Positions 4,804 to 50,480 of a stretch of 64,000 nt of DNA are shown piece after piece. Below the pieces are notes generated by a model. The model made no database searches. It was not told the origin of the DNA and saw only the letters and a program-made list of their open reading frames with translations. Where the stretch lies: NCBI GenBank assembly GCA_026989655.1, contig JALSIX010000056.1, positions 1-64,000 on the forward strand, given 5' to 3'. The stretch comes from Caldilineaceae bacterium. GTDB lineage: Bacteria > Chloroflexota > Anaerolineae > Caldilineales > Caldilineaceae. The position numbers and the translations under genes were made by a program. Every line of letters begins with the position of its first letter. Position 1 is the first letter of the stretch.

Positions 4804-7410
4804 TCAGCACTCGCTGTAGCCGCAGATGATGCACTTGCGGCACCCTTCCACGTTGAGGAAGGCCGCCTCGCCACATTCGGGGCACAGGTCGCCGATGGGG
4901 CGTTGGGCAATGGGCAGGGCCAGTTGTTCGGCCGGCTCCGGGGGGGTGCGGTGGGCCTCCGGGGGCATCTCCTCCAGGTACTCCGCGATGACCTGGGCGA
5001 TGCCGTCGGGCAGGCTCCGCACCCGTTGAGCGCCGAAGCCCAGGGCCCGACCGCCGCCGATCCCGGCCAGCTCGTCCATCACCCAGCGCAGCCGCTCCGC
5101 GCCCGGCAGGGGCCCCGGCATGCGCAGGACCAGGCTGATGAGACGGCCGATGGCCTCGCTCACCGCGCTGACGTCGCTGCCGGCCTTGCCGATGTTCACG
5201 AAGACCTCGAAGGGCTCCCCCCGTTCGTCGCTGTTCACCGTGATGTAGGCCGTGCCCAAGGGCGTCTCCTTCCGGTAGGTGCTGCCCCGGAGCAGGTGGG
5301 GCCGGGGCCGCTTCACGTGGAAGGTCTCGGGGCCTTCTGGATCGCCCCGGCCATTGGCCTCCTGGGAGCCGGCCACCGGGGAGGGGAGCGAGCCGTTGGC
5401 CCCGGCGCCGTTGGGGCCCGGGCCGTCGCCGGCCTTCCTCTGCCGGGTGGCCTGGGTCTCCAACACCACCTCCTGACGGCTGCCCGTGACGTAGACGGTG
5501 ATCCCCTTGCAGCCCAGCTCCCAGGCCAGCTGATAGGCCCGGGCCACATCCTCCTCCGTGGCGTCCTCGGGGAAGTTGATGGTCTTGCTGATGCTGTTGT
5601 CCACGAAGGCCTGGATGGCCGCCTGCATGCGCACGTGTTCCTCCGCGGTGATGTCCTGGCTCACCACGAAGGTGTGGCGGATCCACTCGGGGAGGTCCTG
5701 GATGTGTTGACAGGTGCCCCGGGCCACCACCTCCTCCTTGATCTGCTGTTTGCGGGCCTCGCTCAGGTCGGTGGTGTCCAGCGCGGCCTGGAAGAGGGGG
5801 CTGGTGTAGAGCAGCTCCACGTCCTGGTCGCCGTCCTTGAAGTGGCGGATGTAGCCCAGCGCGAAGACGGGCTCGCAGCCGTAGCCCTCACAGCCGCTCA
5901 CCGTGCCGATGGTGCCCGTGGGCGCGACGGTGGTCTGGGCCGCGTTGCGGATGCCGTGTTGGGCCAGCCCCTCCACGATGGCCTGCCAGTCCAGCTCCGG
6001 CCGTCCCCAGTCCCGGGTGTAGGGGAAGAGGGGCTGGGGAGGCTTCCACCGCATGCCCCCGGGTTGTTCCGGATCGTAGATGCTGCCGGGGAAGGCCGGG
6101 AAGGGGCCCCGTTCCCGGGCCAGCTCGATGCTCCGCTGCATGGCGTGGTAGCGGACGAACTCCATGATCTGGGCGGCGAACTCCTGGCCCTCGGGGCTTC
6201 CGTAGCGGATGCGGAGCTTGTACATCAGGTCTCCCAGCCCCATGATGCCCAGGCCGATCCGCCGGGCCCGCAAGGCCGCCTCGCGGAGCTGGGGCACCGC
6301 GGGGACGTAGGCGTTCTGGGTCACCACGTTGTCCAGGAAGTGGGTGGCCTCCCGGATGGTCCGGCGCAGGCGCTCCCAGTCCACCACCGTGTGGCCCTGG
6401 CCATCCGTGGTCACGTGGACCCCCAGGTTGACGGAGCCCAGGCAGCAGTTCTCGTAGGGCCCCAGCCACTGCTCTCCACAGGGATTGGTGGCCTCCAGCT
6501 CGTAGAGATGGGGCACCGGGTTGCTGCGGTTGGCGGCATCGATGAAGAGGGCCCCGGGCTCGCCGTTGCGGTGGGCGTGGTGGACGATCTGCCGGAAGAG
6601 CTCCCGGGCCCGGACCTGGGTCCACACCTGGCCGTCCCGGGGGTTGCGCAGGGCGAACTCCCGGTCCTCCTGCACGGCCTCCATGAACTCGTCGGTGATG
6701 GCCACGGAGATGTTGAAGTTCGCGATGGCGCCCTCCTGGGCCTTGCAGGCGATGAACTCCTGGATGTCCGGGTGGTCCACCCGGAGGACCCCCATGTTGG
6801 CCCCGCGCCGCGAGCCCCCCTGCGCGATCTCGCCGAAGGCCTGGTCGTAGACCCGGAGAAAGCCCACCGGCCCGGTGGCCCGCCCCGCGGAGGTGCGGAC
6901 CACGTCTCCCTTGGGGCGCAGGCGGCTGAAGGAGAAGCCGTTGCCGCCGCCGGTCTGTTGGATCAGGGCGGCGTTGCGCAGGGTGTTGAAGATCCCGTCC
7001 GGCGACTCCTTGCCCATGTCGTCCTCGATGGGCAGGACGAAACAGGCCGCGAGCTGGCCCAGGGGGGTCCCCGCGCCGGTGAAGGTGGGGCTGTTGGGGA
7101 AGAAGCGGAGCTCGGTGAGCAGCTCGTAGAAGGTGCGGGTGGTGGCCTCCACGTCGCCGCCGAAGGGCTCATCGGCCTGGGCAATGAAGTGGGCGATCCG
7201 GTAGAACATGCCCGCGGGGGTCTCCAGGGGCGTGCCGTCGAAGTCCCGCCGCAGGTAACGGCGCTCCAGCACCCGACGACCGTTCTCGCTGAGCTGGATC
7301 GTGCGGTCGTCCACGTAGTCAGGACATTCCACGCGCAGGCGTTCGCCCTTCACCACCTCGAAGGTGGTGAAGGCTCGGGTGCGAGCGCGCGCTCGCGTCT
7401 TCGGGCTCAT
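4804..7410 (-). CDS. nrdJ: Adenosylcobalamin-dependent ribonucleotide reductase (class II)
   Basis: Reduces ribonucleotides to deoxyribonucleotides with a B12-generated thiyl radical; cytosolic, 868 residues. Visible are the thiol residue C123 (AACFVLP), the radical-site motif NPCGEQ with N309, C311 and E313, the phosphate-binding stretch APTGTIG, and a C-terminal zinc-ribbon (CPECG ... [12 protein letters not shown]) typical of long NrdJ. The frame could begin at TTG 7431, but GAGGAGGAG lies 5-7 bases before ATG 7410, which I take as the start. It lies 112 bp downstream of nrdR on the same strand, so it is probably cotranscribed and controlled by NrdR. No cobalamin riboswitch is seen in the gap. 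Confidence 0.95.
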
Positions 7411-12085: not shown

Positions 12086-13192
12086 CTACCCTCGTTGGAT
12101 CCGGTTGCGGCTCCGTTCCCGGTGCCGCTCCAGGGCCAGCATCACCAGCCGGCGGACAAGGTGGGCCAGGGAGAGCCCCTGGGCCTCCCAGAGCTTGGGA
12201 TACATGCTGGCCTGGGTGAAGCCCGGCATGGTGTTGACCTCGTTCAGGTAGAGCCCCCCCTGGGGCGAGAGCAGGAAGTCCACCCGGGCCAGACCGCTGC
12301 CGTCCAGGGCCCGGAAGGCCCGGATGGCCCACCGTTGGGCCGTCGCGGCCTCCTGGGGCTCCAGGGGGGCTGGGATGCGCAACACGCTGTCGTCTCGCAG
12401 ATACTTGGCCTCGTAGTCGTAGAACTCGTTGGCCGGGATCACTTCGCCGGGCACGCTGGCCACTGGGTCGTCGTTGCCCAGGATGCTGACCTCGATCTCC
12501 CGGGCATCGGGGATGGCCTGCTCCACCACCAGCTTCCGATCGTAGGCCCCGGCCAGGTCCAGGGCAGGGCCCAGCTCCCTCCGTTCCCGGACCTTGCTCA
12601 CCCCCACGCTGCTGCCCAGGTTGGCCGGCTTGACGAACAGGGGGTACCCCAGCTCCGACTCCAGCTCGGCCACCACCGCGAGGGGGGCTTCCTGCCAGCG
12701 ACGGCGCGTCACCACCCGGTAGCGGGCCTGGGGGATGCCCGCCCTCGCGAACAGGGCCTTGCTCACGGCCTTGTCCATGGCCACCGCGCTGGCCAGCACC
12801 CCGCAGCCCACGTAGGGCACCCCGGCCATCTCCAACAGGCCCTGGACCGTGCCGTCCTCGCCGAAGGGGCCGTGGAGCACCGGAAAGACCACGTCCACCG
12901 GGGGCATGGCGCCGGGATCGGCCAGCAGGGCCCACAGGGGCCGGGCCCCGGACAAGGGCCGAAGCGCCGGTTCCGGGGCCTGGAGGGCCTCCTCCAGCCG
13001 GGCCAGGGGATCGTCCTCCACCAGCCAGGCTCCCTCCACGGTGATGCCGATGGGCACGGTCGGGAATCCAGCCTCCTGGAGCCCGGCCAACACCGTTCGG
13101 GCGCTCATCAGGGACACCGGATGTTCCCCGCTGCGTCCGCCGAAGAGCACCCCGACCCGGATCCGGCCGGGATCTACCTCACCTGGCTCCAC
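12086..13192 (-). CDS. ddl: D-alanine--D-alanine ligase
   Basis: ATP-grasp enzyme joining two D-alanines for the peptidoglycan stem peptide, 368 residues. It opens with [17 protein letters not shown], carries [16 protein letters not shown] and [13 protein letters not shown] in the ATP-grasp core, and ends the active site with ARVDFLLS ... [12 protein letters not shown]. The frame is open much further upstream, but homologues begin 5-12 residues before [11 protein letters not shown] 13192 fits and overlaps the murB stop by 19 bp, indicating translational coupling. An alternative internal GTG at 13153 would delete the first strand and is unlikely. Confidence 0.94.
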
Positions 13193-14148
13193 TTCCCTAC
13201 CCACTGGATCTCCGGCTCGAGCTCGATGCCGAACTGCTGCAGGACGTTCAGACGGATGTGGTCCATCAGGCGAACCACGTCCTCGGCCCGGGCAGCGCCC
13301 ACGCCCCCGGGGTTCACGATGAAGTTCGCGTGCACCGGGCTGACCATGACGCCCCCGATCCGATAGCCCTTGAGGCCGGCGGCCTCGATGAGCCGGCCGG
13401 CGAAGTCCCCCGGGGGGTTGGCAAAGGTGCTGCCCAGGCTGGGCTCCACGGGCTGGGTGCGCCGTCGGTGTTCCAGGTAGTGGGCCGCACGTTCCCGGAT
13501 CTGGACCGGATCGCCCCGCTGCAGGCGGAAGTTCACGGTGAGCACCACCGGATCGAAGCCGGGCTGGAGGGCCTGGGACCGTTTCAGGATACTCCGGCGA
13601 TACCGGAAGCCCAGGTGGGAGGCCCGGGTGTCCTGGACCTGTCCCTCCTGGTCCAGGACCAGGGCGTTCCACAGGATGTCCTTGATCTCGCTGCCGTGGG
13701 CGCCCGCGTTGTTCACCACCGCGCCGCCGATGGTGCCGGGGATGCTCACCGCCCACTCCAGTCCGGTGAGGCCCGCCTGGACCGCGGTCCGGGCCACCCC
13801 GGCGGTGAGGGCCCCGCTCTCCGCGAAGACGAAGGGCCGGGCATCCACGAAGAAGTCGCTGGGGACCGGTTCGTCCACCCGGATGGTCCGACATCGGTTG
13901 TGGATCACCAGCCCGTGCACGCCGGTGTCGCTGATCAGGACATTGCTGCCGCCCCCCAGGATCAGGTAGGGCAGCCCCACGGAACGGGCCCAGCGCACCA
14001 GCTTGAGCAACTGGTTGGTTCGATGGACTGTGGCAAAGTACTCGGCCGGTCCGCCGATCTTGATGCTGGTCAAGGGCGCCAGGGGGCGTCCTTGTTCGAT
14101 CCGCACGCCGAAGGATTCAGGAATCTGGAAGTCGATATAGTTTCTCAC
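13174..14148 (-). CDS. murB: UDP-N-acetylenolpyruvoylglucosamine reductase
   Basis: FAD/NADPH enzyme forming UDP-MurNAc, 324 residues from GTG 14148. The FAD-binding domain shows [12 protein letters not shown] and [12 protein letters not shown], then [21 protein letters not shown]. The catalytic serine lies in [19 protein letters not shown], and [16 protein letters not shown] follows; this is the shorter type II form. No strong ribosome site is seen before the GTG, which lies 24 bp after murC. The 3' end overlaps ddl. Confidence 0.96.
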
Positions 14149-14172
14149 ACGGTAGAGGGTATCGTCAATGGC

Positions 14173-15615
14173 TTACAACGCATATTGCAGGGGTTGTTGG
14201 GCCAGGCGGGCCAGCAGCTCTTCACCCACCCGGGTGACGTCTCCGGCCCCCAGGGTCACCACCACGTGGCCGGGGGCCACTGCCTGGAGCAGGTGTTCCA
14301 CGGTGGCGTTCAGGCTTCCGGTGTACTGGATGGAGGCATGGGAGCTGGCCGCCACCAGGTCCTGGGCATGGATCTGGCCGCGGTCCTGCTCCCGGGCCGG
14401 GTAGATGTCCGTGATCAGGGCGTGGTCGGCCTGGTGGAAGCTCTCGGCCAGGGCCTGGAGCAGGGTCTGGGTGCGGCTGAAGGTATGGGGCTGGAACACC
14501 GCCCAGAGGGGACGGCCACGGTAGCGCTGCCGCGCGGCGGCCAGGGTGGCCTGGACCTCCGTGGGGTGGTGCGCGTAGTCGTCGATCACGGTGACCCCAT
14601 CCTGGGTGCCCTTGAGTTCGAAGCGGCGGGCCACTCCTGGGAACCGGGCCAGGCTCTCCAGGGCCTGGGCCATCTCCACGCCACAGTGGCGGGCTACCAC
14701 CAGGGCGGCCAGCGCGTTCCGCACGTTGTGGTGTCCGGGTATCTGGAGCTCCAGTTCCCCCAGGGGCGCGCCCCACCAGCGAACCCGGGCCCGGATCCCG
14801 CCCTGGGGGGTGGGCTCCGGGGCCTCGCCGCGCACGTCCACGTGGGGGGCCAGGCCATAGGTGAGCCACCGGCCCCGGGTGGGGGCGAAGGCCCGCAGCT
14901 CCTCCGCGCCGGGGTCGTCGCCGCAGGAGACCACGGCCCCCTCCCGGTGGACCCGGTCCACGAACTGCATGAAGGCCCGCCGGAAGCTGGCCGGGGAGGG
15001 GTAGCAGTCTGGGTGGTCCCAGTCCACGTTGGTGAGGACCGCGATGTGGGGGGTCAGCCCCAGGAACATGCGGTCGTACTCGTCGGCCTCGATCACGAAG
15101 TAGGGGTGGGTGCCCCAGTGGCTGTGGCCGTAGCCGGGCAGCTCCGAGCCGATGATGTAGCCCGCGTCCACACCGGCCTGGTGGAGGACCTGGACGATCA
15201 TGGCCGTGGTGGTGCTCTTGCCGTGGCTGCCGGCCACCGCGATGGTCGGACGGTGTGCCAGCAGGGCGCCGAGGAACTCCCGTCGTTTGACCACGGGAAT
15301 GCCCAGGGCCGCTGCGGTGGCCCGTTCCGGGTTGTGGGGCCCGATGGCGCTGCTGATGAGGACCACATGGGGGCGTTCCTCGGCAGACAGGGCGCGGAGG
15401 GGCTCCCCGCTCTGGTCCAGGTGGATCCGCGCGCCCTGGGCCGCCAGGGCCTGGGTCCGGGCACTGGCCTGGACGTCGCTGCCGCTCACCTGGATGCCCT
15501 GTTGGAGCAGCACCTGGGCGATGGGGGCCAGGCCGCTTCCTCCGATGCCGATCAGGTGGACCCGCAGACCAGGATGGGAACGGGCCAGGAGATCTCTCCA
15601 GCGGTGGGGGGCCAT
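14173..15615 (-). CDS. murC: UDP-N-acetylmuramate--L-alanine ligase
   Basis: Adds L-Ala to UDP-MurNAc, 480 residues. Mur ligase domains are in order: Rossmann start [21 protein letters not shown] loop [13 protein letters not shown], central [28 protein letters not shown], and the C-terminal domain with [11 protein letters not shown] and [12 protein letters not shown] 15615 is used because GAGGATAGGACA precedes it; a GTG at 15633 in frame lies inside the upstream gene. It starts 4 bp after the stop of the CvpA-like gene at 15620, so the two are coupled. Confidence 0.96.
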
Positions 15616-15619
15616 TGTC

Positions 15620-16168
15620 CTATCCTCGAACACGCATCAGCAGCAGCACCGCGATGGGGATCATCCACCAGGTGGGCGAGGGGACCACCGCCTGGGGGAG
15701 GATCCGGAGCAGGGCCTGGGCCACGGGCGACAGATCTGGCACCACCAGGCCGAAGCGGCTGAGGGGATACCCGTAGACATGTTGGAAGTACCAGAGGGTC
15801 CCGGCCACCAGGTAGCCGTTGAGCCCCCCGATCAGGAGGCTCAGGATGGTCCCCTGGGGCGGGGGCAGGGGCCTGCCATCGAAGACGATGACCTGGCCCG
15901 CATACCCCGCGAAGACCATGGCCACGAAGACCGTGGAGTACAGGGTGCCCAGGAGGAAGGGGGGATCCATCTCCGCCAGCTCTCCTCTCAGGGCCTGGGT
16001 GACCAGCCGTTGCACGGTGGGGTTGAACTGTTGTTCGACGAAACTCAGCAGGAAGATCCCCACCATGATGATCATGGTGCTGCCCAGCTCCTTGGAGTAT
16101 CCTCGGGCCACGCCCACCAGAGCGATGATCAGGGCGATGGTGCCGAAGTAGATCTCGAGCGCTCCCAT
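15620..16168 (-). CDS. CvpA-like integral membrane protein (second of pair)
   Basis: 182 residues with about four or five hydrophobic segments: an N-terminal one ([25 protein letters not shown]), one near [14 protein letters not shown], one at [18 protein letters not shown], one at [18 protein letters not shown], and a C-terminal helix. The RGYSKE turn after helix 1 matches the RGxxRE signature of CvpA (colicin V production family). AAGGAAAG precedes ATG 16168. It sits between the first CvpA-like gene and murC, 14 bp and 4 bp from its neighbours, so it belongs to the dcw operon. Function is unknown; a link to envelope synthesis is inferred only from position. Confidence 0.75.
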
Positions 16169-16182
16169 GGGCTTTCCTTGGC

Positions 16183-16827
16183 TCAGGTGGCCGGGCGCAG
16201 GCTCCGGGCGGCCAGGACCAGGAGCAGGATCACCAGGGCCATGAACACGAACGGCCGTTGGGCCGACGAGGCGTCCCAGAAGAGGTCCAGGCTGTCCCCG
16301 AAGAGGGCCCAGGTCCGGCCCAGGATCCGGAGGACACTCTCCTCCGGCGAGGCGGGCAGGCGGTCTCGGATCTCCGGTGCCACCAGGGATGCCAACAGGG
16401 GCAGGAAGATCCCCAGGTAGACCAGCCCGTTGACCATCCCCACCAGGGCGGCCCGGATCCCGGGGCGGCTCACCGTATCGGGCACCAACATGTTGGTGAC
16501 CAGGTAGGTCAGGAGCAGCAGAGCGGCCCAGAGCAGGAAGACCACGGTGGAGGTCTGTTCCGGGCGCACCAGGTTGGGGGCCTCCCGGAGCAGGTCCAGG
16601 GCATCGCCGTTGCCGGCCAGGCCGCCTGCTCGGGCGAAGTACAGGAACTTCCAGAACAGGTTGATCAGGGTTCGGAGGGCGTTCGCGTAGCGCCACAGGA
16701 ACAGGTAGCTGCCGAAACCCACCGCGAACACCGCCATCTCCCGGACCAGTCCCCGGCGGTAGCCGATCCAGCCGAACAGGAGCAGGTAGAGGAGGAAGGC
16801 AATGGTCAGCTCGATGGAGTCGCTCAT
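16183..16827 (-). CDS. CvpA-like integral membrane protein (first of pair)
   Basis: 214 residues. The first membrane helix ends in GYRRGLVREMAVFAVGFGSYLFLW, the CvpA signature, and three or more hydrophobic stretches follow (TVVFLLWAALLLLTYLV, GLVYLGIFLPLLASLV, VFMALVILLLVLAA). Its ATG 16827 overlaps the murG stop in an ATGA junction, so it is translationally coupled to murG. The two CvpA-like proteins are only loosely alike and may form a heteromeric membrane unit, which is speculation. Confidence 0.78.
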   Translation of the reverse strand: MSDSIELTIAFLLYLLLFGWIGYRRGLVREMAVFAVGFGSYLFLWRYANALRTLINLFWKFLYFARAGGLAGNGDALDLLREAPNLVRPEQTSTVVFLLWAALLLLTYLVTNMLVPDTVSRPGIRAALVGMVNGLVYLGIFLPLLASLVAPEIRDRLPASPEESVLRILGRTWALFGDSLDLFWDASSAQRPFVFMALVILLLVLAARSLRPAT

Positions 16828-17972
16828 GGGCTGGATCGCTCCTGGGCCAGGGAACGGAGCTGGGCCGCGATGGCCTGGGCCGCCTGGGGTCTGGCCAGGC
16901 CACGCAGGCGTTCCCGCATCCGCAGGCGCCGTTCCGGATCGGCCAACAGGGCCGACACGGTGGGAACCAGGGCCTGGTCCAGCTCCGGATCGGGGACCAG
17001 CACCGCGCCTCCGGCCTCCACCAGCTTCCGGGCATTGGGTTCCTGGTGGCCTCCGGCAATGGGCAGAGGGACCAGGACGCCGGGCAGGCCGGCCACCGGA
17101 AACTCGCCGAGGATGCTGGCCCCTGCCCGGGAGATCACCAGGTCGGCACCGGCCAGGGCCCAGGCCATGCCCCGGTGCAGATAGTCCACCGGATGGTACC
17201 GCCGGGCCAGGGCCTCTGGAAGCTCCGGCCGGTGCGTCGCCAACAGGGGCCAGTCCCGGGTGCCCACCACGTGGACCAAGGGGCCGTGGGCCAGGAGCTC
17301 GGCCAGGCCTGCCCACACGGCCCGGTTGATGCTGCGGGCCCCTCGGCTGCCGCCGAAGACCAGGGTCAGGGGCAGGTGGGGCTCGTCCACCGCGCCCAGG
17401 GCCTCCATCAGCCGGGCCCGGGCCGCCCTCGGATCCTGGACCGCCTCCAGCAGTTCCGGGCGCACCGGATAGCCGGTGACCACGGCCTTCTCGCCGAAGA
17501 AGGAGGCGGCCTCCTCGAAGCTCACCGCGACCCGCTGGGCCAGTCGGCTCAGCCACCGGACCGCGAGGCCCGGCGTCATGTCCGGCAGGTAGATGAGCAC
17601 CGGCACCCGTCTCCAGCGGCTGGCCACCACCACCGGGGCGCACACATAGCCCCCGGTGACGAAACAGACCTGGGGCTGAAAGCGGTCCACGATGGCCAGG
17701 GCCTGCCGTACGCCGACCATCATTTTAATCGCGTTGCCGGCTACGGCCAAAGGCCGTTGGCCCCGCAGCGCGCCGGTCTCCACGGCCCGGTAGGGCAGAT
17801 GGGCCCGGCTCACCAGCTCCCGCTCCACCCCTGTCGGGCTCCCCACCCAGAGCAGGGCCGTTCGCTCAGCGGACCCGACGCCGGGCCCGGGAGCGGGCTG
17901 GAGCCTTGCGGCCACGGCCAGCGCGGGGTACACGTGACCGCCGGTGCCGCCACCTGAGATCAAAATGCGCAT
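16824..17972 (-). CDS. murG: UDP-GlcNAc--lipid I N-acetylglucosaminyltransferase
   Basis: GT-B glycosyltransferase converting lipid I to lipid II on the inner membrane face, 382 residues. It begins MRILISGGGTGGHVYPALAV, the GGTGGH donor/acceptor loop; VTGGYVCAPVVVAS and the C-terminal FGGSRGARSIN and SRAGASILGEF motifs follow. The frame is open to 18020, but the motif and a GAGGAT site fix ATG 17972. This start lies 107 bp inside the ftsW reading frame, an unusually long overlap. The stop overlaps the next gene by ATGA. Confidence 0.95.
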   Translation of the reverse strand: MRILISGGGTGGHVYPALAVAARLQPAPGPGVGSAERTALLWVGSPTGVERELVSRAHLPYRAVETGALRGQRPLAVAGNAIKMMVGVRQALAIVDRFQPQVCFVTGGYVCAPVVVASRWRRVPVLIYLPDMTPGLAVRWLSRLAQRVAVSFEEAASFFGEKAVVTGYPVRPELLEAVQDPRAARARLMEALGAVDEPHLPLTLVFGGSRGARSINRAVWAGLAELLAHGPLVHVVGTRDWPLLATHRPELPEALARRYHPVDYLHRGMAWALAGADLVISRAGASILGEFPVAGLPGVLVPLPIAGGHQEPNARKLVEAGGAVLVPDPELDQALVPTVSALLADPERRLRMRERLRGLARPQAAQAIAAQLRSLAQERSSP

Positions 17973-19161
17973 GGGCCATCCTCGGGCCGCTGGAACTTCG
18001 GCCGACCGGGACGTGGCCATAGCGGCCGATGCTGAGCAACATCCCGGTGGCCCCCAACATGGTCACCAGGGAGCTTCCCCCCAGGCTGATGAACGGCAAG
18101 GGCACCCCGGTGGGGGGGGCCAGGGCCACGGCCACCGCCATGTGGACCAGGGCCTGGATGAGAACCAGGCAGGTGATCCCCGCGGCCAGGAGCGCGCCGA
18201 ACATGTCCCCGGCCTGGCTCGCGATGCGAAAGCCTCGGTGGGCGAAGAGGCCGTACAGGCCGATGACCAGGAGGCCACCCAGCAGGCCCAGCTCCTCGCC
18301 GATGACCGCGAAGATGTTGTCGCTCCAGGCCAGGGGCAGCCGCGCGGGGTACTTGGCCTGCCCCTGGCCCAGGCCCACCCCCAGAGGCCCACCCTCGGTC
18401 AGGGCCTGGGCCCCCTGGGCGATCTGCTGCTCGGTGCTCTGGAGGGGATCCCGGTAGGAGGCCAGATAGCTCTCCAGACGGGCCTGGGCGTGGCCGTTGT
18501 AGTAGATCAGCAGGAAGAGGGTGAGGGCCGCGATGGCCCCTCCCAGGAGGATCTGGCGCATGTCCGCGCCGGCCAGGAAGAAGACCAGACCCCCCGCGGC
18601 CACCAGGATCACCGTGGTGCTGATGTCCGGTTCGGCCACGATGAGCCCGGCCACTCCTCCCATGAGCACCCCGAAGGGCACCAGGCCGTAGCTGATGTCC
18701 CGGATACGCTCCCCCTTGCTGGCCAGCCAGGCGCTGATGTAGATGAGGAGCGCGACCTTGGCCGGCTCGCTGGGCTGGATACTGCCGTTGAACAGGGTCC
18801 GGCGGGCACCGTACCGGTCGTCTCCGATCACCAGGACCGCGATCAGGCCCAACAGGGCGATGGCCATGATGGGGATGCTGGACCGTTCCCAGACGGTGTA
18901 CGGGATCCGGGCCGCGACGATCAGCGCGGCCACCCCCACCGGAATCCACTGGAGCTGGCGCAGGGCGAAGCTGTAGGGCGAGCTCCCGACCTCCAGCGCC
19001 TTGGGAAACCCGGCGCTGAGGACCATGAGCAGGCCCAGCAGCAGCAGGGCACTCACCACGGTGACCAGGCCCCAGTCGTAGGGCCGAGCAGGGAGCGCCT
19101 GGCCCTCCCTGGGCTCCTTCTTCTCAGAGGCACGTGGCCGAGAGGAACGTGTGCTGACCAT
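17866..19161 (-). CDS. ftsW: Peptidoglycan glycosyltransferase FtsW
   Basis: SEDS-family septal glycan polymerase, 431 residues, about ten membrane helices. Motifs: RTLFNGSIQPSEPAKVALLIYISAW, AEPDISTTVILV, the extracytoplasmic ARLPLAWSDNIFAVIGEELG and TGVPLPFISLGGSSL. GGGAGGAGG precedes ATG 19161. The normal SEDS core ends near RYGHVPVG. The last ~36 residues are Arg/His-rich and read the murG 5' end in another frame, so the tail may be unselected. It should pair with the transpeptidase at 23394-25226. Confidence 0.95.
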   Translation of the reverse strand: MVSTRSSRPRASEKKEPREGQALPARPYDWGLVTVVSALLLLGLLMVLSAGFPKALEVGSSPYSFALRQLQWIPVGVAALIVAARIPYTVWERSSIPIMAIALLGLIAVLVIGDDRYGARRTLFNGSIQPSEPAKVALLIYISAWLASKGERIRDISYGLVPFGVLMGGVAGLIVAEPDISTTVILVAAGGLVFFLAGADMRQILLGGAIAALTLFLLIYYNGHAQARLESYLASYRDPLQSTEQQIAQGAQALTEGGPLGVGLGQGQAKYPARLPLAWSDNIFAVIGEELGLLGGLLVIGLYGLFAHRGFRIASQAGDMFGALLAAGITCLVLIQALVHMAVAVALAPPTGVPLPFISLGGSSLVTMLGATGMLLSIGRYGHVPVGRSSSGPRMAHAHFDLRWRHRRSRVPRAGRGRKAPARSRARRRVR

Positions 19162-19230
19162 GGACCTCCTCCCTGTCCGTGGTTCGAGGGGGCGTCCCCC
19201 CTGGGGGAGCCGGAGGCCGGGCCCCGGGCC

Positions 19231-20754
19231 TCAGCCCAGCGAGGTGAGGGTGGGCCGCCGGGCCGTCACCTCCTGGACCAGCCGCCGGAAGTGCTCGCCT
19301 CGCTCCTCGAAGTCCCGATAGGCGTCGAAGCTGGTGCCCCCCGGGGACAGGAGCACCACGGTGTTGGGGCCCACGATCCGGGAGGCCAGGCGTACCGCGT
19401 CCTCCAGGCGCCGGACCACCGCGCACTCCGGTGCGCGACGGCCGCGCTCCCGGGCCCGCTCCTGCACCGTCTCCACGATCATGGGGCCCGCTTCGCCGAA
19501 GCCGATGAGAAACTGGACCCGTTCCAGGGCCTCGTCCGCGAAGTCGGCCCAGGGCAGCTTCTTGTCCCGCCCGCCGACCAGGAGGACCAGGGTCTGGCCT
19601 CCGGGCGGGAAGCTCCGCAGGGCGGCCACGGTCCGCTCCGGCGCGGTGGCGATGCTGTCGTTGATCCAGGTGACCCCGTCCCGGTGGGCCACCTCCTCCA
19701 GCCGGTGAGGCACGCCCCGGAAGGTCTGGGCCACGTGGCGGATCCCGTCCAGGGAGGCCCCGGCCGCGGCGGCGATGGCGGCCGCGGCCAGGAGGTTGGC
19801 CAGGTTGTGGTCTCCGCGTAGGCGGACCTGCTCTCGGCGGGCGAAGGGGTGGCCCTGCACCAGCAGGGTCTCCCCTTCCAGCCAGGCCCCCCGGTCCAGG
19901 GGGCGGCTTCGGCTGAACAGAAGGGGGCGGATCCCCTGGGCCGCAAGCCGTTCTCGGGTCCGGTCCAGGAGGTGGGTGACCTCCCAGCTCGGGGGGGGCA
20001 GCATGTCCGGCACCCCGGCCAGGCGGCCGGTCACCGGATCGTCCCGGTTCAGGATCACCTGGCTGTTGTGCCGGAGGTGGCGGAGCAGGTTGAGCTTGGC
20101 ATTCGTGTAGTCCGCCATGGTCCCGTGGCGGTCCAGGTGGTTGGGTGTCACGTTGAGGAGGGCCGCCACCTGGGGCCCCAGGCCCTGGAGGTCCTGGGCC
20201 GTCAGGGTCGGCTCCCAGAGCTCCAACTGGAAGCTGCTCAGCTCCAACACCAGGAGATCCTCGGGCCCCACGTCCTCCAGCCGGTCCAGGAGGGGGGTGC
20301 CGATGTTCCCGCCGACGTGGACGCGGCCTCTCGGGCGGCCGTGGGCCAGCATCTGGCCCACCAGGGTGGTAGTGGTGGTCTTGCCGCTGCTGCCGGTGAT
20401 GGCCACTACCGGGCAGGGCGCGAGCTGCAGGGTGAGCAGGCTGTCGTTGGTCAGAGGGATGCCCTGCTCCCGCGCGGCCTGGACCAGGGGGCTCTGGAGG
20501 GGGACGCCGCCGCTCAGGCAGAGGAGGTCGCACTCCTTCAGGAGCTCCGGGGGGTGGCCACCCATCACCCAGCGGATGGGGAGATCCGCCAGCGCCTCCC
20601 GGGCCTTCCCGTGCCGGGAGGCTGGGGTCCGGTCGCTGAGGGTGACCTGCGCGCCGGCCCGGGCCAGGAAACGGGCCAGGGCCTGGCCCTGGCGGCCCGC
20701 GCCCAGGATGACGGCTCTGCGGCCACGGAACTCCAGGAGGTTGGGTGGGGACAT
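19231..20754 (-). CDS. murD: UDP-N-acetylmuramoylalanine--D-glutamate ligase
   Basis: Adds D-Glu to UDP-MurNAc-L-Ala, 507 residues. The Rossmann start is [18 protein letters not shown], the ATP loop [19 protein letters not shown], the central motif [22 protein letters not shown], and the C-terminal part carries [33 protein letters not shown] and [22 protein letters not shown] 20754 with GGTGAGAG upstream is preferred over GTG 20775. It lies 69 bp before ftsW. Confidence 0.96.
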
Positions 20755-20776
20755 GGGTGCTCTCACCGGATCCACA

Positions 20777-20805
20777 GTACGGTTCCCTGGGGTACGGTTC
20801 CCTGG
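20777..20805. repeat. 15-bp tandem duplication upstream of murD
   Basis: GTACGGTTCCCTGG occurs at 20777-20790 and again at 20792-20805, a 15-bp period, inside the 91-bp mraY-murD gap and 23 bases before the murD start. Confidence 0.8.
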
Positions 20806-20845
20806 AAGGGGTGTCGCGTCCTCCGCGTGCTCTCGGGTCTTCTGT

Positions 20846-21850
20846 TCAGAGCAAGGCCAGGGCGACCCCCAGCATGCCGCTGAGCACCCCCACGATCCAG
20901 AACCGCTCCTTCACCTGGGTCTCGCTCCAGCCCAGCAGTTCGAAGTGGTGGTGCAAGGGGGTCATCTTGAAGATGCGGATATCCCGTCCCAGGAAGCGTC
21001 GGCTGAGCTTGGCCGAGGCCACCTGGAGCATCACCGACACGGTCTCGGCCACGAAGACCAGGCCTACCACGGGCAACAGCAGCCACTGGCCGGTCATGAG
21101 GGCCACCAGGGCCAGGGTCGCGCCCAGGGCCAGGCTGCCCGTGTCGCCCATGAAGAGCTCGGCCGGGTGGGCGTTGTACCACAGGAAGGCGAAGAGGGCC
21201 CCCACCAGGGTGAAACAGAAGGCCGCCAGGTAGATCTGCTCCTGCAGGTAGGCGATGATGCCGTAGGACACGAAGCAGGTGGTGGCCAGGCTGCCGGCCA
21301 GGCCGTCCAGGCCATCGCTCAGGTTCACCGCGTTGCTGGAGCCCACGATGACGAAGATGGCGATGGGCACGAACCAGATCCCCAGGCGCACGAACTCCGG
21401 CCGGCCGGGCACGCCCATGTAGTCGAACTCCGGCGGCCCGAAGTAGAGGACCGCGGCGATCAGGGATGCGAAGAGGAACTGGAAGCCGCTCTTCATCCGG
21501 GGGCTCAGGCCCTCTCCCCGACCTCGGAGCCCCTTGATGCCCTGCCAGTCGTCCACGGCCCCCAGGGCCGCGTAGGCCGCGATGCAGAAGAAGAGCAACA
21601 GGGTGCTCTGGCCGATCAGGTTCATGCCCCACAGGTCCGCCAGGTTCAGGACCCCGGTGATGAGGAGCACGGGCACCACGAAGAGCACGCCCCCCATGGT
21701 GGGGGTTCCGGTCTTCACCCGATGGGTAGAGGGTCCCTCGATGCGGATCTGTTTGCCCATGCCGTGTCGGCGCAGCAGGGTGATCAGGGGGCGGCCCCAG
21801 ATCACGGCCAGGAAGAAGCTGACGGTGCCCAGGGTCAAAGCGTATGCCAT
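20846..21850 (-). CDS. mraY: Phospho-N-acetylmuramoyl-pentapeptide-transferase
   Basis: Transfers phospho-MurNAc-pentapeptide to undecaprenyl phosphate to make lipid I, 334 residues with about ten membrane helices. Conserved cytoplasmic motifs are [57 protein letters not shown] and [14 protein letters not shown], all intact. The start is ATG 21850, 13 bp after murF, with AGGA eight bases upstream. Confidence 0.97.
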
Positions 21851-21863
21851 GACAGGGTCCTGT

Positions 21864-23375
21864 TCAGGCGCTGATGGCGGCCACGATCCGATCCATGCCC
21901 ACGGCCCGGCTTCCCTTGACCAGGACCAGGTCCTCCGGGCCGATGGTCTGTTCCAGGAACCGGATGGCCTCCTCGGCCGAGGCGAACTCCCGGACCCGCT
22001 CGGGAGGCAGCCCGGCGGCCTGGGCTTCCTGGCCGATGATCCGGGCCAGCTCGCCCACGGTGACCAGCAGGTCCACCACGTCTGCGGCCCGGATGCCCAC
22101 CAGCCGGTGGCCTTCCTGGGTGTAGCTGCCGAGTTCTCGCATGTCGCCCAGCACCGCGATGCGTCGCCTGAAGTGGCCGTTGCGCAGGTCGGCCAGCAGG
22201 TTCAGGGCGGCCAGGGTGCTGGAGGGGCTGGCGTTGTAGGTGTCGTCGATGATGGTGCTGCCCTCCAGACCGGCCACGGCCACCAGGCGGAGCTGGCCGG
22301 TGGAGCGCTGGAGGCCGGCCACGATCTCCGGCCAGGTCAACCCCTCCACCAGGCCCACCGCGGCCGCCCGGAGCGCGGTGTGGACGCTGTGTCGCCCCAG
22401 CAGAGGGATGCGGACGTAGAGGGTCTCCTCCCGGTCCGGTCCGATCCGATGGTGGAAGCGGAACCGGATCCCCTCCAGCCCCAGCCCCTCGATCTCGTCG
22501 GCCCACAGGTCCGCCTGGGGCGTCAGGCCGTAGCGGAAGATCCGGGCCGAGGTGCGCGAGGCCATGGCCCGCACCCGCTCGTCGTCCCAGTTCAGGATGG
22601 CCACCCCGCCTGCGTCGGCCGGGGGCAGGGACTCCACCAGCTCGGCCTTGGCCTGGGCGATCCGTTCCAGGGTTCCCAGCCGTTCCAGGTGGCTGGGCCC
22701 CACGTTGGTCACCACCCCCACGTGGGGTCGGGCCAGCGCGCAGAGGTTCCGGATCTCGCCCAGGGCATACATGCCCATCTCCAAGACGGCCCGCTGGTGT
22801 TCCAGGCCCAGCCCCAGCAAGGTCAGGGGGAGGCCCTGTTCGCTGTTCAGGTTGCCCGGGTTCGCGTGGACCGGGTACCGCTGGGCCAGGACCCCCGCGG
22901 CCAGGTCCTTGGTGCTGGTCTTGCCCACGCTGCCGGTGATGCCGATGACCCGGAGGTCCGGGCGGGTGCGATGGAGGCGCTGGAACGCGCCCACGGCCTG
23001 GAGCGCGGCCAGGCTGTCCGGCACCACGTAGACCAGGGGCCGTTCCCCTTCGGCAGGGTCCAGTGGAGGCCGTTGGAAGGGGGAGCCGCTGCACTGGACG
23101 GGGAGGGCGGGCTGGCCGTCCAGGTGTTCCAGGCCTCGGGGCTCGCAGATCACCGCGGCGGCCCCCTGGGCCAGGGCCTGGCCCACGTAGAGGTGCCCAT
23201 CCGTGTGCTGTCCGGGCAGGGCGACGAAGAGCCCCCCGGGCCGCACCTCTCGGCTGTCCAATGTGGCCGCAGCGATGGGGGTGGCCGGCAGGGCCAAGGG
23301 GGGCGTCGTTCCGGTCAGGGCCTGCCACAGGGTGTGTTGGGTGATCTGGGTGGGCAGGGCCACACGTTCAGCCAT
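21864..23375 (-). CDS. murF: UDP-MurNAc-tripeptide--D-alanyl-D-alanine ligase
   Basis: Adds D-Ala-D-Ala to the muramyl tripeptide, 503 residues. The N-terminal substrate domain shows [23 protein letters not shown], the ATP loop is [20 protein letters not shown], and [18 protein letters not shown] and [12 protein letters not shown] follow. The C-terminal domain has [20 protein letters not shown] and [18 protein letters not shown]. It lies 18 bp downstream of the transpeptidase gene. murE, expected between them in many dcw clusters, is not in this window. Confidence 0.96.
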
Positions 23376-44441: not shown

Positions 44442-46838
<2,397 letters not shown>

Positions 46839-46851
46839 GAGCGCCCTCCCC

Positions 46852-47319
46852 TCAGTCCTGGATGGCCTTCAGCGCTCGGGGCACGCTGTCCTTGGGGCGG
46901 ATGCCGTACTTCACGTCCAGGAGGGTGCCCTCCTCGTCGATGACGAACTGGCTGCGCTGGATCCCCATGAACTTCCGCCCGTACAGGCTCCGCTCTCCCC
47001 ACACGCCGTAGAGCTCCGCGATGCGGTGGTCCGGGTCCACCAGGAGGGGAAAGGGGAGGTGGTGTTTCTCCTTGAACTTCCGATGGCTCTCCACGCCGTC
47101 GGGGCTGACGCCCAGGACCACCGCGCCCTTCTCCTGGAGGACCGCGTGGTTGTCCCGGAAGCTGCAGGCCTGTTTGGTGCAGCCAGGGGTGTCGTCCTTC
47201 GGGTAGAAGTAGAGGACCACCTTCTGGCCCCGGAAGTCGGACAGGCGCACCGGGCGTCCCTGGTCGTCCACCGTCTCGAAGTCCGGCGCGGGCATGCCGG
47301 GTTCCAGCTTCTTGGCCAT
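46852..47319 (-). CDS. bcp: Thioredoxin-dependent peroxiredoxin (Bcp/PrxQ)
   Basis: Reduces hydrogen peroxide and organic peroxides, 155 residues. Peroxidatic C47 lies in YPKDDTPGCTKQACSF and the resolving C52 five residues later, the PrxQ arrangement. The start APDFETVDDQGRPVRLSDFRGQKVVLYFYP and later GVSPDGVESHRKF are typical. AAGGAG precedes ATG 47319. Convergent with the E1 gene, 13 bp apart, and downstream of the class III aminotransferase. Confidence 0.96.
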   Translation of the reverse strand: MAKKLEPGMPAPDFETVDDQGRPVRLSDFRGQKVVLYFYPKDDTPGCTKQACSFRDNHAVLQEKGAVVLGVSPDGVESHRKFKEKHHLPFPLLVDPDHRIAELYGVWGERSLYGRKFMGIQRSQFVIDEEGTLLDVKYGIRPKDSVPRALKAIQD

Positions 47320-47356: not shown

Positions 47357-48703
47357 TCAGCCTGCCAACGCCAGCAGGGCCTCTCGCATGACCTGGAAGC
47401 CCATCTCGGCCTCCTCTCGGGTCAGGATGAGGGGTGGGGAGACCCGCACGGCCCTCTGGCCGCAGGGGAGGACCAGCAACCCCCTCTGGAAACAGCTCTG
47501 GACCCACTGCTGCGCGGTGGGTGGGTCCACCATTTCCAGGCCGATCATCAGGCCCTTGCCCCGGACCTCCTGGAGCAGGGGGCATTCCCGGGCCAGCTCC
47601 CGGAACCGGGCCATCAGGTACTCGCCCTGGGCCACCGCGTTCTCCATCAGCCCGTCCCGCTGGATGATCTGGATGCTGGCCCGGGCCGCGGCACAGCCCA
47701 GGGGGTTCCCGCCCCAGGTGGTGCCGTGGGCCCCTTCGGGCCAGGTGCTGACGCTGGCCCGGGCCATGAAGCCGCCCACCGGCACGCCGCTGGAGATCCC
47801 CTTGGCCATGCAGAGGATGTCCGGCTGGACGCCCCAGTGCTCCACCGCGAACATGCGCCCTGTGCGGCCGAAACCCGTCTGGACCTCGTCCGCGATGAGC
47901 AGGATGCCGTGCTCCTGGGTGAGGGCCCGCAGGGCCTGGAGGAAGCCGTCTGGCGGCACGATGTAGCCCCCCTCTCCCTGGATGGGCTCCACCACGATGG
48001 CGGCCACCTCCTCCGGGGGGGTGGTGGTCTCGAAGACCGCGCGGAGCTGGCTCTCGGCCATCTCCCAGCCCCAGTCGGCCTCGTCCCGGCCCTTGGGGCA
48101 GCGGAGCCGGTTGGGAAAGGCCAGGTGGGTGACGCCGCTGAGCAGGGGGCCGAATCCCCGCCGCTGGACGGCCTTGCTCGCGGTCAGGCTCAGGGATCCC
48201 GTGGTCCGGCCGTGGAAGGCGCCCCGGAAGGCGATGATCCGCTGGCGTCGGGTGTGGTAGCGGGCCAGCTTGATGGCCCCCTCCACGGACTCGGTGCCGC
48301 TGTTGGTGAGGAAGACCTGCCACCCGCCCGTGTAGGGGCCTTGGGGGGCCAGGGACACCAGGAGCTCGCACAGCTCCGCGTAGCCCGGGCTGTAGACGTC
48401 GGGGCCCCCCACGTGGAGGGCCCGGGCCGCCTGGGCCTGGACGGCCTGGACCACCTCCGGGTGGCAGTGGCCGGTGTTGCAGGTCGCGATGCCCGCGAAG
48501 AAGTCCAGGAAGACGTTGCCGTCCACGTCGGTGATCCAGCAGCCCTCTGCGGTGGCAGGGACCAGGGGGAAGACTCGGCCCAGGGCCGCGCTGGTCACCT
48601 GTTCGTCCCGTTCGATGTAGGCCCGGGCCTTGGGACCGGGCAGGGGGCCGTGGATCTGGATGCGCCGTGTGGGGGATGGTGTGGTGGGCGTCGTCGTCGA
48701 CAC
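47357..48703 (-). CDS. Class III aminotransferase (GABA/ornithine type)
   Basis: PLP enzyme, 448 residues from GTG 48703 with AAGGAGGG upstream. TNSGTESVEGAIKLARYHT, FRGAFHGRTTGSLSLTASK, VEPIQGEGGYIVPP, IADEVQTGFGRTG and the Schiff-base Lys in CMAKGISSGVPVGG are present; GTTWGGNPLGCAAA closes the active site. Best fits 4-aminobutyrate, 5-aminovalerate or acetylornithine aminotransferase; the C26 hydrolase at 32544 could supply GABA, but the link is only suggestive. Confidence 0.92.
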   Translation of the reverse strand: MSTTTPTTPSPTRRIQIHGPLPGPKARAYIERDEQVTSAALGRVFPLVPATAEGCWITDVDGNVFLDFFAGIATCNTGHCHPEVVQAVQAQAARALHVGGPDVYSPGYAELCELLVSLAPQGPYTGGWQVFLTNSGTESVEGAIKLARYHTRRQRIIAFRGAFHGRTTGSLSLTASKAVQRRGFGPLLSGVTHLAFPNRLRCPKGRDEADWGWEMAESQLRAVFETTTPPEEVAAIVVEPIQGEGGYIVPPDGFLQALRALTQEHGILLIADEVQTGFGRTGRMFAVEHWGVQPDILCMAKGISSGVPVGGFMARASVSTWPEGAHGTTWGGNPLGCAAARASIQIIQRDGLMENAVAQGEYLMARFRELARECPLLQEVRGKGLMIGLEMVDPPTAQQWVQSCFQRGLLVLPCGQRAVRVSPPLILTREEAEMGFQVMREALLALAG

Positions 48704-48762: not shown

Positions 48763-49668
48763 CTACCCTTCCCCGGCCCATTCGGGCACTCCCTGGTCCG
48801 GAATGTCGCTGGGAGGCGGCGGGTGGGCGGTGCGTTCCTGCAGGCGGTAGGTGTAGCCGGGCCCCAGCGCGTGGAGCCGGAGGCCCAGGATGCTCAGCGG
48901 AGAGGGATCCCGGTAGGCGGAGATGTTGGTGTGGGTCATCTCCGCGGCGTCCACGAGGAGCGCGCTGTGGCGGCCGATGATCTCCAAGGTGTTGTCGGGG
49001 TAGATCACCGCGCCGGTGTCCCGCTCCAGGGCCAGACCCACCAGGAAGGGGTTGTAGGCCACGGCTTCCAGCAAGCGGGCCAGCCGGTCCCAGCCCTCCC
49101 CCACTGTCGAGGAGGTGCTGTCCAGCACCACCCGATTGGTGATGCCCAGGCCTGGGGAGAGCTGGATGCGATGGCGGTGGAGGAAGGGGACCGGGGATTC
49201 CCGGGCCCGGACCGCCTGGGTGTCGAACGCGATCATGTGTTCGCAGAGCAGCGCGGCCCCGGCCCCGTGGCCGGCCACCACCTTGCCCCGGGCGTTGGCC
49301 CGTCGGATGGCCTGGGCCAGGGGGGTGCCCCCCAGGAAGGTGGCCAGCTTCAACGGGTGGTCTCCCAGCAGGAGGATGGCTGTGGCCTGCCCGATCACGT
49401 CCAGGAGCTCGGTCCGCAGCGCATCCTCCCGGCAGGTCACCTGGAGCACGTCCACGGTGTCCGACTCCCACTCCTGGAAGCGGCCCGCGAGCTGTTGGGC
49501 CTGCTCCCAGGCAGAGGGGCCCGTGGGCACCAGGACGATCCGGGAGCCGTACGCGCCGGAGGTCTCCCAGAAGTGCTGGAACAGCCGCTCCTCTCCGTAG
49601 GGGTCCAGTCCCCTGGCCAGGAACAGGATGGAGCCTCGGGTGTAGCCGGACGGCACGGGCGCGGGCAT
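48763..49668 (-). CDS. Cyanophycinase-like S51 family protein lacking the nucleophile
   Basis: 301 residues. Overall order matches cyanophycinase/S51 peptidases: start SILFLARGLDPYGEERLFQHFWE, then IVLVPTG, AILLLGDHPLKLATFLGGTPLAQAIRRANARGKVVAG and the elbow. In family members the elbow is GTSAGA with nucleophilic serine; here it is GHGAGA (133-138), Gly at the serine position. LSPGLGITNRVVLDS, RLARLLEAVAYNPFLVGLALERDTGAVI follow as usual. It is probably not a serine hydrolase and may be a binding or scaffold protein. ATG 49668, 20 bp after the lipoprotein stop. Confidence 0.72.
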   Translation of the reverse strand: MPAPVPSGYTRGSILFLARGLDPYGEERLFQHFWETSGAYGSRIVLVPTGPSAWEQAQQLAGRFQEWESDTVDVLQVTCREDALRTELLDVIGQATAILLLGDHPLKLATFLGGTPLAQAIRRANARGKVVAGHGAGAALLCEHMIAFDTQAVRARESPVPFLHRHRIQLSPGLGITNRVVLDSTSSTVGEGWDRLARLLEAVAYNPFLVGLALERDTGAVIYPDNTLEIIGRHSALLVDAAEMTHTNISAYRDPSPLSILGLRLHALGPGYTYRLQERTAHPPPPSDIPDQGVPEWAGEG

Positions 49669-49688: not shown

Positions 49689-50480
49689 CTACCGAGGCGC
49701 GGCTTCTCGGTACTCTATCTGTTGGACCATCCTGCGCAGGAGGGTCTCCACCTGGGTGCTGTCGGCCTGGGCGGGCATGGTGAGAGCCACCAGGAGCATC
49801 TGGCGCCCTCCTTCATCCAGCAGCGCCACCTGCCAGAAGCGGAGGTCGGGCCCCGGGTGGGCACGGGCCAGGCCCCGTACCAGCGCCACCTCCAGTCCTC
49901 GGGGCCGCCAGCCGGCCACCACCTGGGCCTCCTCTACGGCCACGCCATCCACTCGGGCCAACTCGTCCCCCAGCAGCGTCGCGTACGCGTCCAGGGTCAG
50001 CCGGGCAGGGACGACGTTGAGGAAGATGGGCCCCGAGAGGCCGTCCAGCACCACCGTCCCCACCCCCACCAGGCTCTCGGGCCAGGCCGTCTGCGCCTGG
50101 GGAGGCGACCAGGGCCCCCAGGGGCCCTGGGACAGCCCCGTGAGCAGCGCCTTCCCGGCCCCAGTGTCTGGGGTGGTCAGGGTCCAGGTGGGGGGGTGGG
50201 CCACCCGAAGGCCCTGGGCAGGGAGTTCCCATGTGGGCCAGGCGGCCGGCTCGGCGGTCGGCGACGCCGCGGGTGTAGGGGATGGGATGGCCGGAGGAGT
50301 GGGGGTGGCTGTGGGGGGGGCGGTGGGCGAAGCGGCCGGCGCGGGGGGCGTGGCTGTGGCTGTGGGCGTCGTCGGTTCCGGGGTGGGCGAGAACCGACAG
50401 CCGGCCAACATCCACAGGGCAGCCAGCAGGAGAAGCGCCAGGGCGGTTCGACGGGCTCGGACAGGATCTCGCCAGAGCAA
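49689..50480 (-). CDS. Lipoprotein with Thr/Pro-rich linker
   Basis: 263 residues. The start TTG 50480 is chosen because AGGAGT lies seven bases upstream and the reading gives a good lipoprotein signal: basic residues, a hydrophobic core (ALALLLLAALWM) and lipobox LAGC with C28. A low-complexity T/P/A/S linker (~32-75) leads to a ~180-residue globular domain with strands LRVAHPPTWTLTTP, FLNVVPARLTLDAYATLLG and RFWQVALLDEGGRQMLLVALTMP, resembling PsbP/DcrB-type lipoproteins in style, but I cannot name the family. Confidence 0.78.
   Translation of the reverse strand: MLWRDPVRARRTALALLLLAALWMLAGCRFSPTPEPTTPTATATPPAPAASPTAPPTATPTPPAIPSPTPAASPTAEPAAWPTWELPAQGLRVAHPPTWTLTTPDTGAGKALLTGLSQGPWGPWSPPQAQTAWPESLVGVGTVVLDGLSGPIFLNVVPARLTLDAYATLLGDELARVDGVAVEEAQVVAGWRPRGLEVALVRGLARAHPGPDLRFWQVALLDEGGRQMLLVALTMPAQADSTQVETLLRRMVQQIEYREAAPR

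Follow-up and report, generated by a model that had tools for sequence, protein, structure and literature searches.

Judged by its own sequence and those of its orthologues, the cyanophycinase homologue encoded at positions 48763..49668 (minus strand) of a 64,000-nucleotide stretch of Caldilineaceae DNA (hereafter the window) belongs to an established pseudoenzyme subfamily, whose members have kept the fold under purifying selection and have lost the catalytic residues. This assignment is based on the loss of the triad in the orthologues, their position in one clade, their low dN/dS ratios and the full cyanophycinase fold predicted for the window protein. The latter is filed here as a cyanophycinase homologue and pseudoenzyme and not as a cyanophycinase. 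The residue replacements strongly support a non-catalytic protein, and we infer that it does not hydrolyse cyanophycin. Its likeliest role, by analogy, would be to act in amino-acid metabolism as a partner or sensor without catalytic function.

Results

The gene is an intact open reading frame from an ATG start to a TAG stop and encodes 301 amino acids. The protein matches the Pfam S51 family (PF03575; 32.4 bits, cut-off 23.9) and scores just above the cut-off of the NCBIfam cyanophycinase equivalog model (TIGR02069; 128.3 versus 126.6 bits), and three cyanophycinase chains from the PDB match it with E values of 7e-27 to 1.4e-25. The source genome, about 4.1 Mb in 150 contigs, contains one match to the window protein and one other S51 match, which is weak and below the cut-off. 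The AlphaFold2 model of the protein has a mean pLDDT of 85.9 and values below 50 for most of the nine residues at each end; its best structure matches are 7uqv (Z 32.7), 3en0 (Z 32.6) and 7uqw (Z 32.4) over 257-261 residues, followed by the next entry at Z 22.4. Structure prediction, which the first-pass annotation of this DNA had proposed as a check, thus returned a full cyanophycinase fold.

Like cyanophycinase (CphB; MEROPS S51; 3en0, 7uqv, 7uqw; TIGR02069), whose fold it shares over approximately residues 12-284 (Z 32-33, 24-30% identity), the window protein has no signal peptide visible by eye and is probably cytosolic; the GGT, PGLG and NP motifs are common to its family and canonical cyanophycinase. 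Unlike CphB, it has replacements at Ser132, His174, Glu201, Gln101, Gln173 and Arg178, its gene is not adjacent to that of cyanophycin synthetase (CphA), and its family has an N-terminal tail that is Pro-rich and conserved, as well as an additional tail at the C terminus. The Pro-rich start of the window protein, MPAPVPSGYTRG, is strongly conserved among the orthologues despite its poorly predicted beginning, which suggests that it serves as a contact segment. The C-terminal residue is Phe or Tyr in 9 of 17 Caldilineaceae rows, none of which is among the eight from the window's clade.

When aligned to Synechocystis cyanophycinase (3en0) and homologues, the nucleophile elbow of the window protein reads GHGAGA (residues 133-138; 49255..49272, minus strand), with Gly135 (49264-49266, minus) in the place of the nucleophile Ser132. 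The canonical GG[ND]Q is represented by GDHP: D-H-P (residues 103-105; 49354..49362, minus) stands for G-[ND]-Q, and the second Gly of the GG pair and Gln101 are lost. Thr185 (49114..49116, minus) replaces the catalytic His174, DQHF having become DSTS, and Arg216 (49021..49023, minus) replaces Glu201, DEDT having become ERDT; the triad His and Glu are therefore lost as well. Glu201, placed by residue count in the 3en0 alignment, is the residue that we take to be the triad acid of Synechocystis CphB. This agrees with the Ser-His-Glu triad given in PMC3235067, which names Gln101, Asp172, Gln173, Arg178, Arg180 and Arg183 as critical pocket residues around the catalytic Ser132; in our alignment, Gln173 and Arg178 are lost from the window protein together with Gln101. 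The first-pass annotation had recognised Gly in the place of the catalytic Ser in GHGAGA, and the alignment bears this out. It had also held that the remaining motifs of the fold stay; the fold is indeed kept, but GDHP, DSTS and ERDT have taken the place of GG[ND]Q, DQHF and DEDT.

The comparison of these positions covered 21 Caldilineaceae orthologues, each from a different genome (17 full rows, three partial ones and one containing masked letters), and 73 homologues from other lineages, three of which lack the Ser (L058, the first copy in L105, and L030) and were set apart from the 70 canonical rows. Copies of genes already counted (L089-L103 and L115) and matches of less than 150 residues were left out of the alignment. 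Many of the 70 canonical rows are closely related and do not represent 70 independent events, and further canonical rows found among the relatives stand outside this count. With respect to relatives in genome contigs, a single-sequence search retrieved none and an alignment-based search retrieved 56 loci; among the 99 genomes with a match, the best 30 loci were examined.

None of the 21 orthologues has Ser at the position of Ser132 (20 have Gly, one has Ala), and among the 20 that cover the respective positions none retains His174, Glu201, Gln101 or Gln173. Of these 20, Arg178 is kept in one, Asp172 in 18, Arg180 in 14 and Arg183 in 17; an insertion adjoins the Arg178 column and makes the columns of the pocket residues less certain. 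By comparison, Ser, His and Glu as well as all six pocket residues are intact in 70 of the 73 homologues from elsewhere. Since all 21 orthologues lack the Ser and 70 of 73 homologues elsewhere have it, Gly135 is not a product of chance or of a sequencing error. The elbow around Gly135 is variable among the orthologues, and the residue preceding the nucleophile position is His, Tyr, Leu, Val, Ile or Met instead of Thr; across the 17 full orthologue rows, 40 columns are invariant. With all three triad positions replaced in every Caldilineaceae row covering them, the suggestion of the first-pass annotation that the protein is non-catalytic is well supported by the alignment.

Orthologues were found in 21 of the 37 searched genomes of the window's family and occur in 13 of its 17 genera. 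One genus that carries the gene includes two genomes without a match (completeness 69% and 89%), and no orthologue was detected in four genera of the family, nor in six further genomes of one of them (g8). The 18 Caldilineaceae rows in a phylogeny of 68 rows group on a single side of a branch supported by an SH-aLRT value of 99; this tree was calculated with a quick method, with the active-site columns kept, 22 of 90 rows left out as near-copies and four long end branches flagged. Five pairs of relatives have dN/dS ratios of 0.11-0.16, and two pairs that include the window gene have ratios of 0.21-0.25; the values for the latter two and for one pair of relatives are rough because dS is 1.3-1.5.

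Another family of the class (f21; genomes G056, G477, G521 and G538; loci L058, L174, L175 and L176) also has relatives in which Gly occupies the position of the Ser. These four proteins all keep His174 and an acidic residue at position 201 (one Glu, three Asp), the L058 protein being the one with both His and Glu, and they have lost Asp172 and Arg183. The two families have thus lost different parts of the site, with Ser and Gln101 missing in both. Seven residues (W34, Y40, G41, E68, P105, K129 and G135) occur in f21 and in 90-100% of the Caldilineaceae rows, compared with 0-11% of the 70 canonical rows, and because of these common residues a single origin of both families is likely. The tree joins one f21 row and a copy in L105 to the Caldilineaceae rows (SH-aLRT 94, long branches). 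Three of the four f21 proteins end in -SSF.

Two further arrangements came to light among the relatives. In L105 (CP059258, a record with ambiguous bases), a pseudo-cyanophycinase gene with a GSGAAA elbow (5062-5940) directly precedes a canonical cyanophycinase gene with GTSA (5995-6822), as if the pair had been caught after a tandem duplication; L163 of G458 carries the same dead/canonical pair. In L030 (G057:C475), a 716-aa open frame contains a cyanophycinase-like domain, whose elbow is GTGAGG, and matches a second time in part; it may represent two fused S51-like domains lacking the Ser.

The first-pass annotation had placed the gene between a class III aminotransferase and a lipoprotein, and this is correct; all three genes lie on the minus strand. 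The upstream gene (49689..50462, minus) is separated from the pseudo-cyanophycinase gene by 20 nt and encodes 257 aa from an inferred GTG start, with a lipobox (LAGC) recognised by eye. Its model (pLDDT 84.2) has a PsbP/Mog1-like fold with a best Z of 12.6 (3hlz), and structures of PsbP, Mog1, DcrB and LpqN match it at Z of about 10-12. Among these, CyanoP (2xb3), LpqN (6e5d) and DcrB (6e8a) resemble the predicted fold with Z 10.4-11.3 and differ in sequence, with identities of 8-14%; a convincing Pfam family match was not found for the upstream protein.

Genes of this membrane-anchored protein family are located directly upstream, on the same strand and within 180 nt, in 16 of the 18 loci compared (L039-L056); among these 16, the gene in L049 is weakly similar and that in L046 is cut by the contig end. 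Of the two other loci, L047 has a relative about 1.2 kb upstream and in L053 none was seen, and two partial loci (G032 and G034) show the same upstream gene order. Several of the upstream proteins have a hydrophobic N-terminal stretch alone where the window copy has a lipobox, and the two groups into which they fall are homologous by profile (hhalign probability 99.9). Because relatives also occur in genomes without the pseudo-cyanophycinase gene, the upstream protein is not a dedicated partner everywhere. In three genomes of genus g8 (G024, G031 and G036), in which the pseudo-cyanophycinase was not found, such relatives form tandem or multi-domain arrays (e.g. G036:C20:37261-43299).

The downstream gene (47357..48703, minus) begins 59 nt after the pseudo-cyanophycinase gene and encodes an ArgD-like class III aminotransferase of 448 aa, which scores 550.7 bits against the acetyl ornithine aminotransferase family model PRK05769, just below its cut-off of 552. 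An aminotransferase gene is directly downstream in 8 of the 18 loci, which constitute the window's clade (L039-L046) and whose copies are 70-72% identical to that of the window; it is also present in both partial loci that extend downstream (L012 and L015; 71 and 73%). In L048, which is sister to the window's clade, a branched-chain amino acid ABC cassette and then an aminotransferase gene follow on the same strand, and in the other nine loci no aminotransferase was found in the 4 to 20 kb examined, some of these stretches being short. A close orthologue of the aminotransferase (E 1e-150 or better) occurs in 7 of 37 genomes, in each case near the pseudo-cyanophycinase gene, and nine searched genomes with the pseudo-cyanophycinase gene have no such orthologue. 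The aminotransferase is therefore not a universal partner. Nor is it the only ArgD candidate of its own genome, since two other genes score above the ArgD cut-off.

The next gene on the same strand, after a gap of 37 nt, encodes a thiol peroxidase of the Bcp/PrxQ type (46852..47319, minus; PRK09437, 154.1 bits, cut-off 140) and is not among the gene clusters common to the compared loci. On the plus strand of the window (44442-46838), a 798-aa open reading frame resembles, by eye, fused alpha and beta E1 subunits of a 2-oxo acid dehydrogenase. In loci from two bacterial families, cytochrome P450 genes occur near the pseudo-cyanophycinase gene: in L042 (6576-8000) and L058 (10357-11595), both recognised with Pfam, and in L045 (11962-13254), recognised through its gene cluster; none adjoins the gene in the window. 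Neither the PsbP/Mog1-fold neighbour nor the aminotransferase was seen in the stretches examined of the f21 loci. Six group-B loci encode a small membrane protein (cluster c6) close to the gene; compared by eye with the one encoded after the f21 gene, it showed no apparent relatedness.

Genes for cyanophycinase and CphA are reported to be clustered in 535 of 658 genomes in which both were recognised (PMC10206079). No CphA scores above the cut-off in the source genome of the window (best 101 bits, cut-off 850), which argues against a role of the window protein in cyanophycin metabolism. Among 61 genomes, CphA is above the cut-off in one (G014), where it lies beside a separate canonical cyanophycinase gene; the pseudo-cyanophycinase gene of this genome is on another contig. 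In the window itself (12512-22760, minus), the cyanophycin synthetase model matches in part at several places, far below the cut-off; these probably mark Mur ligases of a cell-wall gene cluster and not CphA.

Discussion

In our best explanation, the window protein descends from a true cyanophycinase and has been kept as a non-catalytic protein, most probably as the partner of another protein, which in the window's clade would be the ArgD-like aminotransferase; we hold this reading with moderate confidence. The cyanophycinase body may bind and tune another protein; the old active-site cleft and the conserved Pro-rich tails would then act as contact or ligand surfaces. The adjoining aminotransferase is favoured as the client in the window's clade because ArgD of Synechocystis co-purifies with CphB and almost doubles its activity in vitro (PMC12661447). 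According to the same source the effect is mainly one of ArgD on CphB, as the activity of ArgD is raised by CphB by only 4-10%; the affinity of the two proteins in vitro is described as weak (Kd 29.8 uM), with a stronger association on ornithine feeding (PMC10783636).

The analogy to the Synechocystis complex thus consists of a cyanophycinase body and an ArgD-family aminotransferase, whose genes are neighbours in one clade here. CphB of Synechocystis is active and stimulated by ArgD; for the window protein, gene adjacency suggests a possible link to the aminotransferase. Moreover, the CphB residues said to hold ArgD are Ser46, Arg47, Glu48 and Arg55 together with His174 and Arg178 (PMC12661447). 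These are mostly absent from the window protein, which has Trp, Glu, Gln and Arg (near a gap) at the first four positions and Thr and Val at the last two; the contact motif is also reported to be lacking in CphBs of various bacteria (PMC12661447). In addition, shared ancestry alone could have produced the pattern of aminotransferase and pseudo-cyanophycinase genes.

The linkage to the membrane-anchored PsbP/Mog1-fold protein hints that the cell surface may be coupled to amino-acid metabolism in the cytosol. A more far-reaching version, in which the dead cyanophycinase family would serve a membrane-linked amino-acid module (PsbP-fold lipoprotein, pseudo-cyanophycinase and ArgD-like aminotransferase) as its dedicated regulatory subunit in the cytosol, appears unlikely to us. 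The membrane would separate the upstream domain from the cytosolic pseudo-cyanophycinase, which would speak against such a coupling.

The main rival of a protein partner is a ligand-binding pseudoenzyme, whose remodelled cleft senses an amino acid or a short peptide and which does not require a fixed protein partner. We consider this somewhat unlikely, and the pocket residues are divided on it. The equivalents of Asp172, Arg180 and Arg183 are largely kept, the predicted fold is complete, the protein is conserved in differing genomic contexts, and the branched-chain amino acid cassette of L048 stands between the pseudo-cyanophycinase and aminotransferase genes; however, Gln101, Gln173, His174 and, in 19 of 20 orthologues, Arg178, which are reported to bind or position the substrate (PMC3235067, PMC12661447), have been lost in the Caldilineaceae, the Thr preceding the nucleophile has been replaced, and f21 lacks Asp172 and Arg183, too. 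With the pocket half lost and half kept, the protein may still bind an amino acid or an anion, though not through the cyanophycin site as described. Of the idea put forward in the first-pass annotation, a sensor or binder of beta-aspartyl peptides, the loss of Gln101, Gln173 and Arg178 leaves the beta-aspartyl ligand in particular weakened, and what is retained of the pocket is still consistent with a binder.

Loss of the triad might also conceal a change of chemistry, in which the same cleft would use a different nucleophile or catalyse a reaction other than hydrolysis; we regard this as quite improbable. Such an enzyme would be in accordance with the purifying selection on the gene, with Cys142 in all 21 orthologues and an invariant His144 in the 17 full ones, and with f21 relatives that keep His174 and an acid at position 201 in the absence of Ser. 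Cys142, the sole family-invariant candidate for a nucleophile located elsewhere, a finding that the first-pass annotation had said would refute its reading, does not look like a replacement: it is also present in 4 of the 70 Ser-containing homologues and in only one of the four f21 relatives, so that a move of the nucleophile to this residue is weakened. His144 is general (0.94 of the canonical rows), the elbow is variable around Gly135, and a conserved acid-base set replacing the triad was not seen in the Caldilineaceae rows. That the protein is a still active, divergent cyanophycinase misaligned at the elbow is very improbable; its TIGR02069 score lies just above the cut-off, but Ser, His, Glu and Gln101 are absent at the aligned positions, flanked by shared motifs, in every Caldilineaceae row that covers them, its own genome lacks a CphA over the cut-off, and G014 has the pseudo-cyanophycinase gene in addition to a canonical cyanophycinase next to CphA. 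A decaying gene or a sequencing or assembly artefact, for which nothing speaks except the substitution itself, carries next to no weight in view of 21 orthologues from as many genomes that all lack the Ser and of dN/dS ratios of 0.11-0.25.

S51 members without peptidase activity have been described before, as clade II of the S51 tree, with cyanophycinase in clade IV (PMC9239234). The Caldilineaceae family resembles them as a group of S51 relatives that would have no peptidase activity; it differs in being derived from cyanophycinase, and it lacks the nucleophile itself. A literature search, which covered the field in part and included few subscription papers, found no report of a cyanophycinase family or clade without the nucleophile.

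Conclusions

The Caldilineaceae proteins provide a clear case of a bacterial enzyme family that has turned into a conserved non-enzyme, for which canonical relatives, a partly degraded second family and a tandem canonical/dead pair are available for comparison. They also pose an annotation risk, as the NCBI equivalog model scores a protein without the catalytic residues as cyanophycinase; because TIGR02069 assigns this name to a protein that lacks the triad, degradation of cyanophycin may be over-predicted in this group. If the family is indeed a regulatory subunit, the contact between CphB and ArgD would have outlived cyanophycin metabolism and become a regulatory device. The family also makes the puzzling binding of cyanophycinase to ArgD testable, in a protein for which catalysis can hardly explain it.
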